Below, piece after piece: positions 2,847 to 8,281 of a DNA stretch of 64,000 nucleotides. This DNA comes from Arenibacter sp. F20364. Its GTDB lineage: Bacteria > Bacteroidota > Bacteroidia > Flavobacteriales > Flavobacteriaceae. A program made the position numbers and the translations under genes. Under the pieces are notes generated by a model. The model did no database searches and had not been told where the DNA came from. It saw nothing but the letters and a program-made list of their open reading frames with translations. The stretch is taken from positions 186,001 to 250,000 of the forward strand of contig NZ_JALKBD010000005.1 of the NCBI RefSeq assembly GCF_023015905.1, given 5' to 3'. How positions within the stretch are numbered: position 1 is the stretch's first letter; every line of letters starts with the position of its first letter.

Positions 2847-3929
2847 CTATGCGTTGATTATCTTTTCTTGGTGATTAATGGATTCTTGGTGAATAGCCTT
2901 AAACATTCTTAAAACAAATTCTTCACTTAATCCCTTAGCCTCTCCTTCCAAAATCATGGCACCTAATATCTGATTCCATCTATTCGATTGTAAAACAGCA
3001 ACGTTTTTCTGCTTTTTCAAAGCACCAATACCATCGGATATTTTCATTCTCTTACCAAGCATATCGATTAACTGGCTATCAAGAACATCAATTTGTGCCC
3101 TTAGATTGCTAAGTTGACTATTATACTCTGCTTCGGTATCAGACTCTTTTCTAATCTTCAGATCTTTCATGATCTGGATCAATTTGGAAGGTGTTACCTG
3201 TTGTGCGGCATCACTCCATGCGTTATCCGGATCAAAATGGGTCTCTATCATTAGACCATCAAAATTAAGATCCAAGGCCGTTTGCGAAACGTCAAAAATC
3301 ATTTCCCTATTCCCAGTAATATGTGAAGGGTCATTAATTAAAGGTAAGTCAGGGAATTTATTTTGAAATTCAATTGCCAATTGCCATTCCGGGATGTTCC
3401 TATATTTAGTTTTTTCATAAGTAGAGAAACCTCTATGTATGGCGCCCAGATTTTTAATGTCGGCAGTATACAATCTTTCAATTCCACCAAGCCATAATGC
3501 TAGATCTGGATTTACTGGGTTCTTCACCAATACAATTTTATCCGTTCCCGCAAGGGCATCCGCAATTTCTTGCATAATAAACGGACTAACGGTTGATCGG
3601 GCACCGATCCACAATAAATCAATATCATGTTCCAAGGCCAACTTAACATGAGCGGCATTTGCTACCTCGGTACAAGTTTTCATACCGGTTTCCGACTTAA
3701 CTTTTTGCAACCACTTTAAACCTAAAGCCCCCACCCCTTCAAACATTCCAGGACGCGTTCTTGGTTTCCAGATTCCGGCACGATAGTAATTTACATCGGT
3801 ATCTTTTAACTCATTGGCAATTCGGAGAACTTGCTCCTCTGTTTCCGCACTACAAGGCCCGGCAATTACTAACGGATGGTCCAATTTCATATCGTCCAAC
3901 CATGTTCTCATTTGTTTTGAATTTTCCAT
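2847..3929 (-). CDS. Bifunctional DAHP synthase / chorismate mutase
   Basis: This 360-residue fusion has two parts. Residues ~1-260 are a short-type DAHP synthase (KDPG-aldolase-like TIM barrel): VIAGPCSAET, RAGIWKPRTRPGMFEG, LLWIGARSTVSPF, LVKNPVNPD, and NDPSHITGNREM with GLMIETHFDPDNAWSDAAQQ. Residues ~270-350 are an AroQ-type chorismate mutase helix bundle: LRAQIDVLDSQLIDMLGKRMKISDGIGALKK. It catalyses the first step of the shikimate pathway and the branch step from chorismate to prephenate. A C-terminal mutase is the usual Bacteroidetes arrangement and often gives prephenate feedback on the synthase (family knowledge). It is last in the operon, 9 bp after tyrA, so it probably shares control by the upstream attenuator. 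Confidence 0.93.
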   Translation of the reverse strand: MENSKQMRTWLDDMKLDHPLVIAGPCSAETEEQVLRIANELKDTDVNYYRAGIWKPRTRPGMFEGVGALGLKWLQKVKSETGMKTCTEVANAAHVKLALEHDIDLLWIGARSTVSPFIMQEIADALAGTDKIVLVKNPVNPDLALWLGGIERLYTADIKNLGAIHRGFSTYEKTKYRNIPEWQLAIEFQNKFPDLPLINDPSHITGNREMIFDVSQTALDLNFDGLMIETHFDPDNAWSDAAQQVTPSKLIQIMKDLKIRKESDTEAEYNSQLSNLRAQIDVLDSQLIDMLGKRMKISDGIGALKKQKNVAVLQSNRWNQILGAMILEGEAKGLSEEFVLRMFKAIHQESINHQEKIINA

Positions 3930-3938
3930 TTCTATACT

Positions 3939-4799
3939 CTATTTTTTGTTAAGTGGTATTCCGTTTAATATTTCCTTTATTTTATTTGTACTATTCATTT
4001 CCTTATAAATGCCTTCATAATCATCTGCGATCAACATAGCTTTGAACTCCTTCAAATTTTGAATATATTCTCCCAATGTTTCAACGACATTTTCCTTATT
4101 CTGTTTAAAAATCGGAGTCCACATGGCCGGTGAACTTTTTGCCAATCGTACGGTGCTTTCAAAACCACTTCCAGCCATGTCAAAAATATCACGTTCATTC
4201 CTTTCTTTCTCAATAACCGTCTTTCCCAACATAAAAGAACTTATATGTGACAAATGTGAAACGTAGGCAATATGCTTATCATGCGCCTCCGGATTCATAT
4301 AACGTATCCGCATACCCAATTGTTGAAAAAGTTCCAATGCTCTTTCCTGTAACTTAAAGGCCGTTTTTTCAATTTCGCAAATAATATTGGTCTTCCCTTT
4401 AAATAATCCTTCTATAGCGGCAGAAGGTCCTGAAAACTCGGTTCCGGCAATTGGGTGACAAGCCAGAAAATTTCTTCTTTTAGGATGATTATCCAAAACT
4501 TTGCAAATTTGGGATTTGGTAGATCCTGCGTCAATAACCACGGCATCATCATTAATGGCGTCCAATATTCTGGGCAGTTCCTGCACCATAACATCCACAG
4601 GAATACCCACTATTACAAATTCGGCCTTGTGCAATTGACTATAATCCGCCTTTTCATCGATCAAGGATAATGACATAGCCTCTTCCAGATGTCCTTCATT
4701 GGCATCTATGCCGTAAATTTTGGAATCCGGCCTATTGCGTTTAATATCCCTGGCCAGTGATCCACCAATTAATCCGATACCGATTACAAATACATTCAT
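3939..4799 (-). CDS. tyrA: Prephenate dehydrogenase
   Basis: TyrA oxidatively decarboxylates prephenate to 4-hydroxyphenylpyruvate for tyrosine synthesis. The 286-residue protein has the N-terminal NAD(P) Rossmann motif GIGLIGGSLA (about residues 7-16) and DAGSTKSQI. The helical prephenate domain shows CHPIAGTEFSGP, HIAYVSHLSHISSFML and GSGFESTVRLA. It lies between the aminotransferase and the DAHP synthase-mutase, all on the minus strand. The 148-bp gap ahead of it (4800-4947) is AT-rich and shows no convincing promoter or terminator. No ACT domain is visible, so any feedback must act elsewhere. Confidence 0.93.
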   Translation of the reverse strand: MNVFVIGIGLIGGSLARDIKRNRPDSKIYGIDANEGHLEEAMSLSLIDEKADYSQLHKAEFVIVGIPVDVMVQELPRILDAINDDAVVIDAGSTKSQICKVLDNHPKRRNFLACHPIAGTEFSGPSAAIEGLFKGKTNIICEIEKTAFKLQERALELFQQLGMRIRYMNPEAHDKHIAYVSHLSHISSFMLGKTVIEKERNERDIFDMAGSGFESTVRLAKSSPAMWTPIFKQNKENVVETLGEYIQNLKEFKAMLIADDYEGIYKEMNSTNKIKEILNGIPLNKK

Positions 4800-4947: not shown

Positions 4948-6090
4948 TCAAAACCTATTAATCGCTTCTTCAATCTTATCTGCCGTAACACATAAGGAGA
5001 AACGAATATACCCCTCTCCGTTTGAACCAAAAATTGTTCCGGGAGTAATAAAAATGTTCTTGTTATAGAGCACCTCGTCAATGAACTTTTCAGAAGAAGA
5101 AACTCCAGCAGGCAATTTGGCCCAAACGAACATCCCTACGGAATTTTTATCATAGGAACATTTTAGCTTGTCAGCAAGGACATACATCAGTTCCCGGCGT
5201 TTATTATAGACTTCGTTTAACTCATTAAACCATGATTCATTACTGTTCAACGCAGCTATAGCCCCTTTTTGAATGCCATAGAACATACCCGAATCCATAT
5301 TGCTTTTCACCTTTAGGACAGCATTGATATGTTCACTGTTCCCCAAAACCATCCCAACTCGCCAACCTGCCATATTAAAAGTCTTACTAAGGGAATTCAA
5401 TTCCAAGGCCACATCCTTGGCTCCATCTATCTCCAAGATACTTATGGGATTTTGGTTTAGAACAAAACTATATGGATTGTCGTTTACCAATAAAATGTCA
5501 TTTTCCTTAGCGAATGCCACAAGCTCTGTTAATTGCTCTCTATTAGCCGTAGCCCCTGTTGGCATATGAGGATAACTGGTCCACATCAATTTAACCTTTT
5601 CAAGGTCTTGCTTTTTTAATTCTTCCAAATCAGGAAACCAACCCTTGACACTTGTTAAATCATAATACTGCGGCTTTGCACCTACCAAATTGGTTACCGA
5701 TGTGTATGTAGGGTAACCGGGATTGGGAATCAACACCCCGTCTCCTGGGTTTAAAAAGGCTAGACTAATATGCATAATCCCCTCTTTAGACCCCATTAAT
5801 GGAAGTACTTCAGCTTGTGAGTCTACAACTACACCAAATTTATTCTTATAAAAAGATGCAAATGACTCCCTTAGCTCTGGTAAGCCCTGATAGCTCTGAT
5901 ATTGATGCGCCCCTTCATGGCTCAAAGCCTCTTTTATCGCATTTTGCACGGCATGGGATGGCTCCAAATCAGGACTACCGATACCCATATTTATCACAGG
6001 TCTTCCCTCTGCCATTAACCCCCGTACTTCCCTAAGTTTCTTAGAAAAGTAGTACTCTTCAACCGAATTTAATCTACTTGCAGCAATCAT
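4948..6090 (-). CDS. PLP-dependent aminotransferase of the aromatic operon
   Basis: This is a fold-type I class I/II aminotransferase of 380 residues. Motifs include NMGIGSPDLEPS, HQYQSYQGLPELRESFASFY, PNPGYPTYTS, NDNPYSF (PLP ring region, Asp204) and SLSKTFNMAGWRVG with the PLP lysine at about 236. The usual NNPTGA segment reads HMPTGA. Context inside a Phe/Tyr operon suggests it transaminates phenylpyruvate and 4-hydroxyphenylpyruvate. Sequence alone would also allow an LL-diaminopimelate or other amino acid substrate. It overlaps pheA by 4 bp (start inside the pheA end), a sign of coupled translation. Confidence 0.85.
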   Translation of the reverse strand: MIAASRLNSVEEYYFSKKLREVRGLMAEGRPVINMGIGSPDLEPSHAVQNAIKEALSHEGAHQYQSYQGLPELRESFASFYKNKFGVVVDSQAEVLPLMGSKEGIMHISLAFLNPGDGVLIPNPGYPTYTSVTNLVGAKPQYYDLTSVKGWFPDLEELKKQDLEKVKLMWTSYPHMPTGATANREQLTELVAFAKENDILLVNDNPYSFVLNQNPISILEIDGAKDVALELNSLSKTFNMAGWRVGMVLGNSEHINAVLKVKSNMDSGMFYGIQKGAIAALNSNESWFNELNEVYNKRRELMYVLADKLKCSYDKNSVGMFVWAKLPAGVSSSEKFIDEVLYNKNIFITPGTIFGSNGEGYIRFSLCVTADKIEEAINRF

Positions 6091-6917
6091 AATATTCTGG
6101 CATTTTTATATTCTCCCAATACTTTAAATTCTTCCGCCATAATTTCCAATAAGGCTTTTGCTTTTTCAAAATTTTCATACTTATCAAAGGTCACATCCAC
6201 AAAAAAGGAATACTTCCATGGCATCTCTATTACCGGCAAGGATTGTATCTTGGTAAGGTTCAGCCTACAATCGCTCATCACATTCAATATAGCAGCAAGA
6301 CTTCCGCGTTTATGATCCGTGATAAACCGTACCGAAGCCTTGTTAATTTCCTTTTCGGGCAGCGCTTTGTTTTTAGTTTTTACTATGATAAACCTAGTAG
6401 AATTATCCTTGATAGTCTGTATTTCCGAATGAATAATCTCCAAGTCGTACAACTCGGCAGCCACTTTTGGCGCAATAGCCGCTATTCCCATCAGCTGATT
6501 TTCCTGAATATTTTTGGCCGTCTCGGCAGTATCCACATCTTCAACGAGTTTGATGTGTTTATAATGCTTAAAGAATTCATTACACTGCAACAAGGCCATT
6601 GGATGGGAACGTACCTCCTTTATCTCATCTATTGTCTGCCCTTTCAGAGCCATTAGATTGTGATGAATACTTAAGTACTTCTCCCCAATAATATGAAGGT
6701 TTTTATGGAACACCAATGCATAATTTGGTATAATGGACCCCGCAATGGAATTCTCAATAGCCATAACCCCTTTGTCTGCAGTCTTGTTGGTTAAATGATC
6801 TACCAAAATATCGAAAGATGAACATTCAACGAATGTAACGTCATCTCCAAAATAGTCCTTTGCCACCTGATGGTGGTTAGAACCTTTGATACCTTGTATT
6901 GCTATTCTTAATTTCAC
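6087..6917 (-). CDS. pheA: Prephenate dehydratase
   Basis: PheA converts prephenate to phenylpyruvate, the committed step to phenylalanine. The 276-residue protein starts with IAIQGIKGSNHHQVAKDYF and has MAIENSIAGSI. It also carries the catalytic-region TRF motif (NSTRFIIV, about residues 168-175) and a C-terminal ACT domain (about 193-276; KRGSLAAILNVMSDCRLNLTKIQSLP) that normally binds Phe for feedback inhibition. It is the first gene of the operon. A terminator hairpin ends 79 nt upstream of the ATG and a Phe-rich leader ORF lies before that, so expression is probably set by attenuation as well as allosterically. Confidence 0.94.
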   Translation of the reverse strand: MKLRIAIQGIKGSNHHQVAKDYFGDDVTFVECSSFDILVDHLTNKTADKGVMAIENSIAGSIIPNYALVFHKNLHIIGEKYLSIHHNLMALKGQTIDEIKEVRSHPMALLQCNEFFKHYKHIKLVEDVDTAETAKNIQENQLMGIAAIAPKVAAELYDLEIIHSEIQTIKDNSTRFIIVKTKNKALPEKEINKASVRFITDHKRGSLAAILNVMSDCRLNLTKIQSLPVIEMPWKYSFFVDVTFDKYENFEKAKALLEIMAEEFKVLGEYKNARIL

Positions 6918-6995: not shown

Positions 6996-7027
6996 AAAAA
7001 AAAAGCCCTGGTTTTCACAGGACTTTT
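6996..7027 (-). terminator. Attenuator terminator upstream of pheA
   Basis: Read on the minus strand, stem AGTCCTG (7024-7018), loop TGAAAAC and stem CAGGGCT (7010-7004) form 7 bp with one G-U pair, flanked by AA/TT pairs. A run of nine T follows. It lies between the leader peptide stop codon (7052) and the pheA start (6917), where a premature terminator would be expected. Confidence 0.85.
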
Positions 7028-7106
7028 ATCTATATATATCTTAAAAATATGCTAGAACAGTCCCTTACCTCCCTTAAAAAAGAAGTAAAAATAAAAACCG
7101 TTCCAG
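7004..7106 (-). promoter_or_regulatory. Alternative stems of a transcription attenuator
   Basis: Four pairing segments can be read on the minus strand. Segment 1 (7106-7093, CTGGAACGGTTTTT, inside leader codons 6-11) pairs with segment 2 (7065-7052, AGGGACTGTTCTAG, the leader end). All 14 positions match, nine Watson-Crick and five G-U. Segment 2 can instead pair with segment 3: GGGACT with AGTCCT (7024-7019), six pairs, plus two more after a mismatch. Segment 3 pairs with segment 4 (7010-7004) to form the terminator. A ribosome stalled at the Phe/Tyr codons would cover segment 1, free segment 2 and block the terminator. The pairings are visible; the switching behaviour is inferred. Confidence 0.75.
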
Positions 7107-7123
7107 AAATATTGCTTTGTCAT
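7052..7123 (-). CDS. Phe/Tyr-rich leader peptide of the aromatic operon
   Basis: This 24-codon ORF (23 residues plus TAG) starts with ATG at 7123 on the minus strand. Residues 4-19 read QYFWNGFYFYFFFKGG. Seven of 23 residues are Phe, three Tyr and one Trp, clustered at residues 5-16. This is the composition expected of a regulatory leader whose translation rate senses charged tRNA-Phe (and tRNA-Tyr). It lies 25 nt upstream of the terminator stem-loop and about 130 nt upstream of pheA, which makes Phe. Such peptides have no function after translation. The call rests on composition, position and RNA pairing. A purine-rich GGAG lies 14 nt before the ATG. Confidence 0.8.
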   Translation of the reverse strand: MTKQYFWNGFYFYFFFKGGKGLF

Positions 7124-7364
7124 TTTTCTTATAAAACTCCGGCTAAAGTAATAATTATATTTATAAATCGGTATGGATGACCCAATTTTTATATTTTATT
7201 TACAATATCCCCTTAAAAAATATGAATTAACCGCCCTATGGGATTAAATTTTGCGAATTGCGAAGAACCAATCCAAATGTCTCATTTACAAAACCTACAA
7301 CTCACTATTGACGATCAATATTTTATCCAAATGATAATTAAATCCAGGTTTCACCAATTTACAT

Positions 7365-7387: not shown

Positions 7388-8281
7388 ATGTCCATCATAG
7401 CAAAAGACATTACCAAATCCTTTGGAAAACAAAAAGCAGTGAACCAGATCTCCTTTACTATCGACAAAGGGGAAATAGTAGGCTTTTTGGGCCCCAATGG
7501 GGCAGGTAAATCCACTATGATGAAAATATTGACCACCTATCACACCCCAGATCAAGGCCAAGCGGAGGTCAATTCATTTGATGTTCAAAAGGAGAAGAAA
7601 AATGTTCAAAGGAGCATTGGCTATTTGCCCGAGCACAATCCTTTGTATTTGGACATGTATGTAAAGGAATATCTTGGGTTTAACGCAGATGTTTACAAAG
7701 TAGACAAAAGTAGGGTCGACGCAGTAATTGAACAGACCGGTCTAAGTCCGGAGGCGAACAAAAAGATAGGGCAACTATCCAAAGGGTATCGACAAAGAGT
7801 GGGATTGGCCGCTGCACTACTACACGATCCAGAGGTTTTGATCCTGGACGAGCCTACCACTGGCCTTGATCCCAATCAACTTTTGGAAATTAGAAAGTTG
7901 ATACGGGAAATAGGAAAAGAAAAGACCATTCTACTGTCCACACACATCATGAAAGAGGTAGAGGCTGTCTGCGACAGGGTATTGATCATCAATAAGGGAA
8001 CCCTTGTGGCAGATAAAAAACTATCTGAATTACGTGATGGACAAGATCAGGTTTTAGTGGTTGAGTTCGATTATAGGGTGGAAGAAGCCTTTCTTAAGAA
8101 ATTGCCCAATGTAAGTGTGGTTAAAAATATTGGTGGCTTTGTTTATGAGATTACCTTTAACACAACTAATGATATGCGACCTGTTGTATTCGACTTCGCT
8201 CATGACAACCAATTAAAAACCCTGCAATTGAGTAGGAAAAACAAGAATCTTGAGAGTTTATTTACAGAATTGACCCTTTAA
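7388..8281 (+). CDS. gldA: Gliding motility ABC transporter ATPase GldA
   Basis: This is an ABC ATPase of 297 residues from the ATG at 7388 (MSIIAKDITKSFGKQ), the usual GldA length. The reading frame is open 50 codons further upstream, but those residues are not family-like and would cover a candidate promoter. Walker A GPNGAGKST, Q-loop region SIGYLPEHNPLY, signature LSKGYRQRVGLAAALL, Walker B VLILDEPTTGLDP and switch STHIMKEVE are all present, and a ~90-residue C-terminal extension follows. GldA works with the membrane proteins GldF and GldG in Bacteroidetes that glide or secrete by T9SS; neither partner is in the window. Without them a general ABC-2 exporter ATPase remains possible. Confidence 0.85.
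   Translation: MSIIAKDITKSFGKQKAVNQISFTIDKGEIVGFLGPNGAGKSTMMKILTTYHTPDQGQAEVNSFDVQKEKKNVQRSIGYLPEHNPLYLDMYVKEYLGFNADVYKVDKSRVDAVIEQTGLSPEANKKIGQLSKGYRQRVGLAAALLHDPEVLILDEPTTGLDPNQLLEIRKLIREIGKEKTILLSTHIMKEVEAVCDRVLIINKGTLVADKKLSELRDGQDQVLVVEFDYRVEEAFLKKLPNVSVVKNIGGFVYEITFNTTNDMRPVVFDFAHDNQLKTLQLSRKNKNLESLFTELTL

Follow-up and report, generated by a model that had tools for sequence, protein, structure and literature searches.

The window, by which we mean the whole 64-kb stretch of DNA analysed, belongs to the 5.7-Mb genome of a marine Arenibacter (Flavobacteriaceae), whose pheA is 89–94% identical to the pheA of 11 Arenibacter records. On its minus strand, a promoter-like sequence is followed by a short leader ORF, two further segments (3 and 4) capable of pairing with each other, a tract of nine T, and the genes for prephenate dehydratase (pheA), an aminotransferase, prephenate dehydrogenase (tyrA), and a DAHP synthase fused to chorismate mutase (Table 1). 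The nine-T terminator and pheA are separated by 78 nt. The gene divergent from the pheA operon is gldA, and the putative attenuator sits in their common intergenic region.

Table 1. Features of the pheA locus, in window coordinates, and other predicted amino-acid leaders of the host genome.
Feature	Location	Strand	Remarks
Candidate promoter element TACTTTAG, variant of the Bacteroidota -7 box (TAnnTTTG)	7143..7150	-	predicted start near 7138; 5' UTR ca. 15 nt
Leader peptide ORF MTKQYFWNGFYFYFFFKGGKGLF	7052..7123	-	23 codons: 7 Phe, 3 Tyr, 1 Trp
Segment 1	7093..7106	-	within leader codons 6-11; 14-pair duplex with 7065-7052
Segment 2	7052..7065	-	end of leader ORF including stop codon; GGGACT (7064-7059), at its core, forms the 5' arm of the antiterminator
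Segment 3 (AGTCCTG)	7018..7024	-	forms either the antiterminator, with segment 2, or the terminator, with segment 4
Segment 4 (CAGGGCT)	7004..7010	-	terminator 3' arm
Nine-T tract of the predicted intrinsic terminator	6996..7004	-	sequence re-read
pheA, prephenate dehydratase	6087..6917	-	GTG start at 6917; PF00800 4e-56
Class I/II aminotransferase	4948..6090	-	PF00155 3.6e-64
tyrA, prephenate dehydrogenase	3939..4799	-	PF02153 and PF20463; NF006307 above cut-off
DAHP synthase fused to chorismate mutase	2847..3929	-	PF00793 1.4e-35, PF01817 3e-21
gldA, gliding motility ABC transporter subunit	ca. 7388-8281	+	NCBIfam TIGR03522 above cut-off
Predicted His leader MKNNRTHHHHFFTCSQAS with terminator, upstream of hisG	L221 (G000:C76)		-7 box ends 7 nt before ATG
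Predicted Trp leader MRNMVSNTWWWSNLRKTS (TWWWS) with terminator, upstream of trpE	L222 (G000:C92)		Rfam Bacteroid-trp 53.9 bits
Probable Ile/Val/Leu-rich leader MKINRNIINLVIIVP with strong terminator, upstream of ilvD	L266/L270 (G000:C106)		same genome

The individual elements on which the original prediction rested were all recovered when the sequence was re-read, namely the 23-residue ORF rich in Phe and Tyr, the 14-position stem between segments 1 and 2, the alternative GGGACT:AGTCCT pairing, and the 7-bp terminator stem (AGTCCTG/CAGGGCT) followed by nine T ahead of pheA. The pairing of segment 1 with segment 2 (1:2) is an unbroken run of 14 pairs, 9 Watson-Crick and 5 G-U, of which 13 (8 Watson-Crick, 5 G-U) were listed by the program and the fourteenth, a U-A pair, was added by eye; when segment 1 was shuffled 100 times, the native duplex had a z score of -4.05. 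The antiterminator (2:3) pairs the core of segment 2 with AGTCCT at 7024-7019, with one G-U pair. Thus, the locus has the short leader ORF rich in codons for the operon's own product that characterises trp, phe and his attenuators; between this leader and the first structural gene lies a hairpin at which the sequence and its covariation predict intrinsic termination. It also has an antiterminator that excludes the terminator through the shared 5' arm of the latter, and 2:3 and 3:4 covary on the same alignment columns (103-109).

Since Phe codons arise easily in T-rich DNA, we considered whether a low-complexity T-rich stretch that happens to read as a Phe/Tyr-rich ORF had been paired by chance with an ordinary terminator. 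Both components are common enough on their own. Short Phe/Tyr-rich ORFs number 10 on the two strands of the window; of the pheA upstream regions, 29 out of 330 contained one after shuffling and 7 out of 110 after reversal. A terminator-like hairpin with a T tract is by itself expected by chance near pheA, one being found between positions 6000 and 8000 on both strands as against a shuffle mean of 1.6. The composition of the leader is more unusual; given the residue frequencies in 10 proteins of the window, the probability of at least 10 Phe plus Tyr in 22 residues is 2.9e-6 per ORF. The complete arrangement was assessed with a strict scan, which required an ATG-initiated ORF 12-45 codons long that encodes 6 or more Phe plus Tyr, soon downstream a hairpin whose T tract has 6 or more T in 8 nt, and an antiterminator with a minimum of 5 pairs. 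Only the pheA leader among the 10 ORFs of the window was accompanied by a terminator and an antiterminator, and the full combination appeared in none of 330 dinucleotide shuffles and none of 110 reverse strands of the pheA upstream regions. While the hairpin alone is at chance level, therefore, the combination of leader ORF, terminator and antiterminator is beyond it. These null results, together with the retention of all parts across the family and the covariation of the pairings described below, led us to reject a chance origin, to which we give almost no credence.

Within the Flavobacteriaceae, the ORF, the terminator and the competing antiterminator were present together in 122 of 125 pheA loci, each representing one genus (107 of 110 genus-level upstream regions and then all 15 of 15 further genera). 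Of the 178 family genomes in which pheA was matched, 126 contributed an upstream region, from which L272 (200 nt at a contig start) was dropped to give the 125; matches in the other 52 were for the most part more divergent. L271 is the same genome as L171. As for the three loci missed by the strict scan, L158 has a hairpin with one mismatch as judged by eye, L176 has 7 Phe plus Tyr in 26 residues, slightly below the threshold, and L180 has too few G-C pairs in its antiterminator. Among loci close to that of the window, 80 of 81 were positive, the exception (L063) having only ca. 150 nt of upstream sequence; this set overlaps the genus-level one in L001 and some species. Every one of the 122 leaders contains Tyr, and the means are 5.4 Phe, 3.6 Tyr and 0.7 Trp. 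The leader peptides of near relatives are strikingly similar (YFWNGFYFYFFF); distant members of the family have the leader composition in common and not the sequence. At L068, L045, L041 and similar loci, the T tract of the terminator extends to ca. 3 nt from the pheA start codon, so that the U-rich stretch must act as the initiation region there.

Covariation was evaluated on an alignment of 56 sequences, hand-picked for diversity from 92 references. Standard pairs accounted for 89.8% of the cells in 1:2 (13 pairs counted), 95.9% in 2:3 and 98.4% in 3:4. The covariation scores were 0.209, 0.167 and 0.229, respectively, and none of them was equalled by any of 500 shuffles or by any slid register; the pairing registers had been picked by best pairing, and the shuffles take no account of relatedness. 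The columns of segment 3 covary with those of segments 2 and 4 alike, which is the mark of a switch. Other measures were less discriminating: the number of pair kinds in 3:4 was reached by 318 of 500 shuffles and that in 1:2 by 80, doubly changed 1:2 pairs were matched in 35 of 500 shuffles, and one slid register of 2:3 had 7 doubly changed cells as compared to 5 in the true register. The least regular pairing is 1:2, in which two pairs each fail in 19 of the 56 sequences and whose duplex is weaker than its own shuffle mean in 3 of 122 loci; its conservation is in part due to coding.

We also compared the cores of 119 of the 122 loci, three having been dropped because they did not fit the pattern used. 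The inner positions 2-5 of the seven in the 2:3 core showed no mismatch, even though one of these pairs varies (A-U 67, G-C 47, G-U 5); mismatches fell on the outermost 3' position (62 of 119) and the next outer positions (16 and 3). The 3:4 core had a single mismatch overall, and its most variable pair was C-G in 47, U-A in 36 and U-G in 36 cores. For instance, segments 2, 3 and 4 read CGGGACT/AGTCCCG/CGGGACT in one group and CGAGACG/AGTCTCG/CGAGACT in another, in which the outermost 2:3 position is unpaired. All seven 2:3 pairs formed in 40 of 119 cores as against 26% when partners were swapped between loci, and the mean pairing was 6.32 of 7 as against 6.02, a small effect that follows from the similarity of the cores across the family. 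Because relatedness is retained in the shuffles and the effect of swapping is small, these counts support a switch and should not be taken as probabilities. The original prediction had proposed alignment of pheA upstream regions, with conserved Phe/Tyr codons and compensatory changes, as a check; the 122 of 125 loci and the three covarying pairings give a positive answer and support the predicted attenuator with a Phe/Tyr leader peptide ahead of pheA.

The spacing of the parts bears on how such an element would work. The last aromatic codon ahead of segment 2 ends 8-11 nt from it in 110 of 122 loci, the gap being 11 nt in 63 of these, and the distance from segment 2 to the end of the stop codon ranges from -5 to 25 nt across the 122 loci, that from the stop codon to the terminator being variable as well. 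The footprint of a stalled ribosome reaches roughly 10 nt past the A-site codon. With this footprint and the observed spacing, segment 2 would stay free whichever aromatic codon of the run the ribosome stalls at, and would start to be covered once the ribosome has moved on by one or two codons. Predicted folds are consistent with this arrangement: with a ribosome placed at Phe16, the uncovered RNA folds into 2:3 (-14.4 kcal/mol); with the ribosome at the stop codon, it folds into 3:4 (-11.7 kcal/mol); and the whole untranslated leader folds into 1:2 and 3:4. The geometry of an attenuator, in which a stall frees segment 2 and a ribosome at the stop codon masks it, is thus present as judged from spacing, folds and the usual ribosome footprint.

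Based on these results, we propose the following scheme. Transcription would start ca. 15 nt upstream of the leader ORF. A shortage of charged tRNA-Phe (or of tRNA-Tyr, and possibly of tRNA-Trp) would stall the ribosome in codons 5-16, over segment 1, with its front edge just short of GGGACT, and segment 2 would be available for segment 3; formation of 2:3 would then preclude the terminator, and the genes from pheA through the aminotransferase and tyrA to the DAHP synthase/chorismate mutase would be transcribed. When charged tRNA is ample, the ribosome would proceed to the stop codon within segment 2 and mask this segment, 3:4 would form, and transcription would stop at 6996. In the absence of translation, 1:2 would pair and 3:4 would form as well. 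We infer ribosome stalling, termination, the response to amino acid supply and the promoter from the sequence. The conserved anatomy, the covariation and the narrow spacing make attenuation by charged tRNA-Phe/Tyr very well supported by comparison, and we consider it very probable that the element is a ribosome-mediated transcription attenuator of the Phe/Tyr operon.

Two other functions were weighed against this one. The hairpin might govern translation of pheA or decay of its mRNA, in which case the ribosome on the leader would expose or block the start region. The proximity of the T tract to the pheA start in L068, L045 and other relatives fits such a role, as a hairpin there could affect initiation too. 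However, the terminator of the window is 78 nt away from pheA, and a T tract, which the scan demanded, follows the stem in all 122 full loci, as intrinsic termination requires; we regard this explanation as improbable. The released leader peptide might additionally act in trans, as has been reported for peTrpL of Sinorhizobium (PMC7298713, as far as its available passages go). The close similarity of the peptide among near relatives would agree with this, but its conservation lies mostly within segment 1 and the codon run, and distant family members have peptides of similar composition and differing sequence, so that we likewise attach little weight to an additional role in trans. Transcription attenuation remains the preferred reading.

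The region preceding the leader ORF appears to contain a conserved promoter. In 105 of 122 family loci, the motif TAnnTTAGC was found in the 100 nt preceding the leader ATG, as against 1% in mononucleotide shuffles, and in 101 of these 105 it ends 10-24 nt ahead of the ATG. At the 109 loci with TAnnTTAG, the box is preceded at a distance of 15-22 nt by TTTGATTT, and an A tract lies farther upstream. The canonical -7 box, TAnnTTTG, was rejected as the conserved element, since it precedes the leader in 12 of 122 loci, close to the shuffled rate of 7%; the conserved form has a fixed A where the canonical box has T. In the available part of a study of Flavobacterium psychrophilum, the sigma-A box TAnnTTTG is located at -12 to -5 (PMC9723704), and the same placement would give the predicted 5' UTR of 15 nt in the window.

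Elsewhere in the class, the segment letters differ again and the logic is the same. The strict scan of 40 loci from the order and class found 12 complete elements, 7 ORFs alone and 21 loci with neither; by eye, hairpins missed by the scan were seen in most of the 7 ORF-only loci and in L236 and L240. Eight of the 21 negative loci come from a single family within the same order, and in the three of its genomes whose downstream DNA was examined (L205, L228 and L232), pheA is 31-32% identical and no other operon gene was found beside it. L191, outside the class, resembles these genomes (pheA 33% identical). The element was absent from all 30 phylum loci, which were the 30 best by score (28 from outside the class, 1 from the class and 1 from the order) and hence no fair sample. 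Leader and operon thus seem to travel together.

One of the loci of the Flavobacteriales, L241, has three different Phe-rich leaders in tandem (positions 142-582 of the locus; G358:C25:18458-19118), each with a terminator and an antiterminator, and its core letters are CGAGGCT with AGCCTCG. This is the only multiple leader among the 245 pheA loci scanned. It precedes a pheA-aminotransferase-DAHP synthase operon in which tyrA was not detected.

It had been suggested that the mixed Phe/Tyr run reflects an operon making both products. We searched 14 leader-bearing loci outside the family (L288-L301) by tblastn with the window proteins (1e-5), and six of the operons had no detected tyrA in the stretch examined, where a diverged tyrA could escape tblastn. 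Tyr is nevertheless present in the leaders of five of these six (L248, L251, L254, L255 and L256); at L241, it is present in one of the three leaders and missing from two. Tyr codons in the leader are therefore unsupported as a sign of tyrA in the operon.

The host genome appears to contain his and trp leaders of the same kind, and probably an ilv leader likewise (Table 1). In the family samples, a leader with a terminator, the antiterminator being outside the criterion, was found upstream of hisG in 27 of 31 loci, trpE in 26 of 30 and ilvD in 12 of 28 (L374 and L384 left out of the last count); the reverse strands of those loci gave none (0/31, 0/30 and 0/30, respectively). At two ilvD loci, L371 and L395, two leader-terminator units stand in tandem. 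The scan found no terminator-like hairpin in the Thr and Lys regions (L268 and L269). The -7 box or a close variant ends 7, 7 and 5 nt ahead of the his, trp and ilv ATGs of the host (the last as judged by eye), and the leader transcripts may thus be nearly leaderless; the trp leader ORF has additional in-frame ATGs. In other his, trp and ilv loci, the distance is up to ca. 20 nt.

No Rfam family matched the pheA element at threshold, which argues against a T-box, riboswitch or other known RNA, and the whole window gave only two tRNAs. The best-ranked amino-acid leader was Trp_leader with 18.3 bits (gathering 41). Phe_leader (RF01859), the enterobacterial pheA type, scored 16 bits (gathering 55). 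The two are alike in having a Phe-rich leader, segments 1-4 and a terminator before the target gene; the Arenibacter element is unlike Phe_leader in its mixed Phe/Tyr codons, its four-gene Phe/Tyr/DAHP operon and its Bacteroidota-type promoter. As far as sequence can tell, the scheme is the same as that of the classical enterobacterial pheA/trp attenuators, with the features of that type that can be sought in a sequence all present. Bacteroid-trp (RF01692) was not among the 19 Rfam matches of the pheA element up to E 10. The trp leader of the host does match it, above the gathering score of 49, which means that peptide leaders in the phylum are already catalogued as a kind. According to the accessible part of its description, Bacteroid-trp is likewise a leader-peptide element of Bacteroidetes, but for trp and not phe (PMC2864571).

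In 2021, strong clues for leader-peptide attenuation ahead of amino-acid operons were described in F. psychrophilum; separately, the same paper lists 5' elements at pheA, hisG and other genes that occur in other genera and had no Rfam hit (PMC9723704, available passages). The pheA element among them belongs to the same family and gene as the Arenibacter one; the passages available contain no pheA anatomy, covariation or spacing, which are worked out here and traced past the family. For Bacteroides thetaiotaomicron, long 5' UTRs with short ORFs that recall such leaders have been mentioned (PMC7366714, in the part available), and a comparative attenuation study by Lopatovskaya and others (2010) is cited in the accessible portion of PMC4833913. 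No further paper on a flavobacterial pheA leader was among the matches listed, most subscription journals being outside the scope of the search. The view that there is little experimental work on the mechanism in this phylum thus fits the literature found, while the idea itself was already in print, as Bacteroid-trp and, judging from its available passages, the pheA and hisG elements of PMC9723704 indicate.

The mechanism has been known for decades in enterobacteria and its presence in flavobacteria had been indicated in print, so that the gain is one of detail and breadth and not a new principle. The kind was already known; what is new is the well-supported pheA element, with its segments, spacing and range worked out. 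More unexpected are the triple leader and how broad the attenuation set is. The Phe/Tyr operon of a large bacterial family is hereby placed under a named candidate sensor with coordinates, segments and spacing rules.

We tentatively suggest, at somewhat less than even confidence, that the element represents an ancestral control of aromatic operons in the Bacteroidia, in which the last aromatic codon is placed one footprint from the antiterminator, the ORF lies near the transcription start, the unit can be multiplied, and an uncharted phe/his/trp/ilv attenuation regulon exists alongside. Bacteroidota have unusual promoters and make little use of Shine-Dalgarno sequences. If the suggestion is true, an ORF near the start would let ribosomes with such scant Shine-Dalgarno use couple to the polymerase at once, the three attenuators in series at L241 would show that the unit can be multiplied, and the class would have a parallel, largely uncharted attenuation regulon for phe, his, trp and ilv. 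A conserved coupled leader in such a phylum would be a natural probe of transcription-translation coupling.
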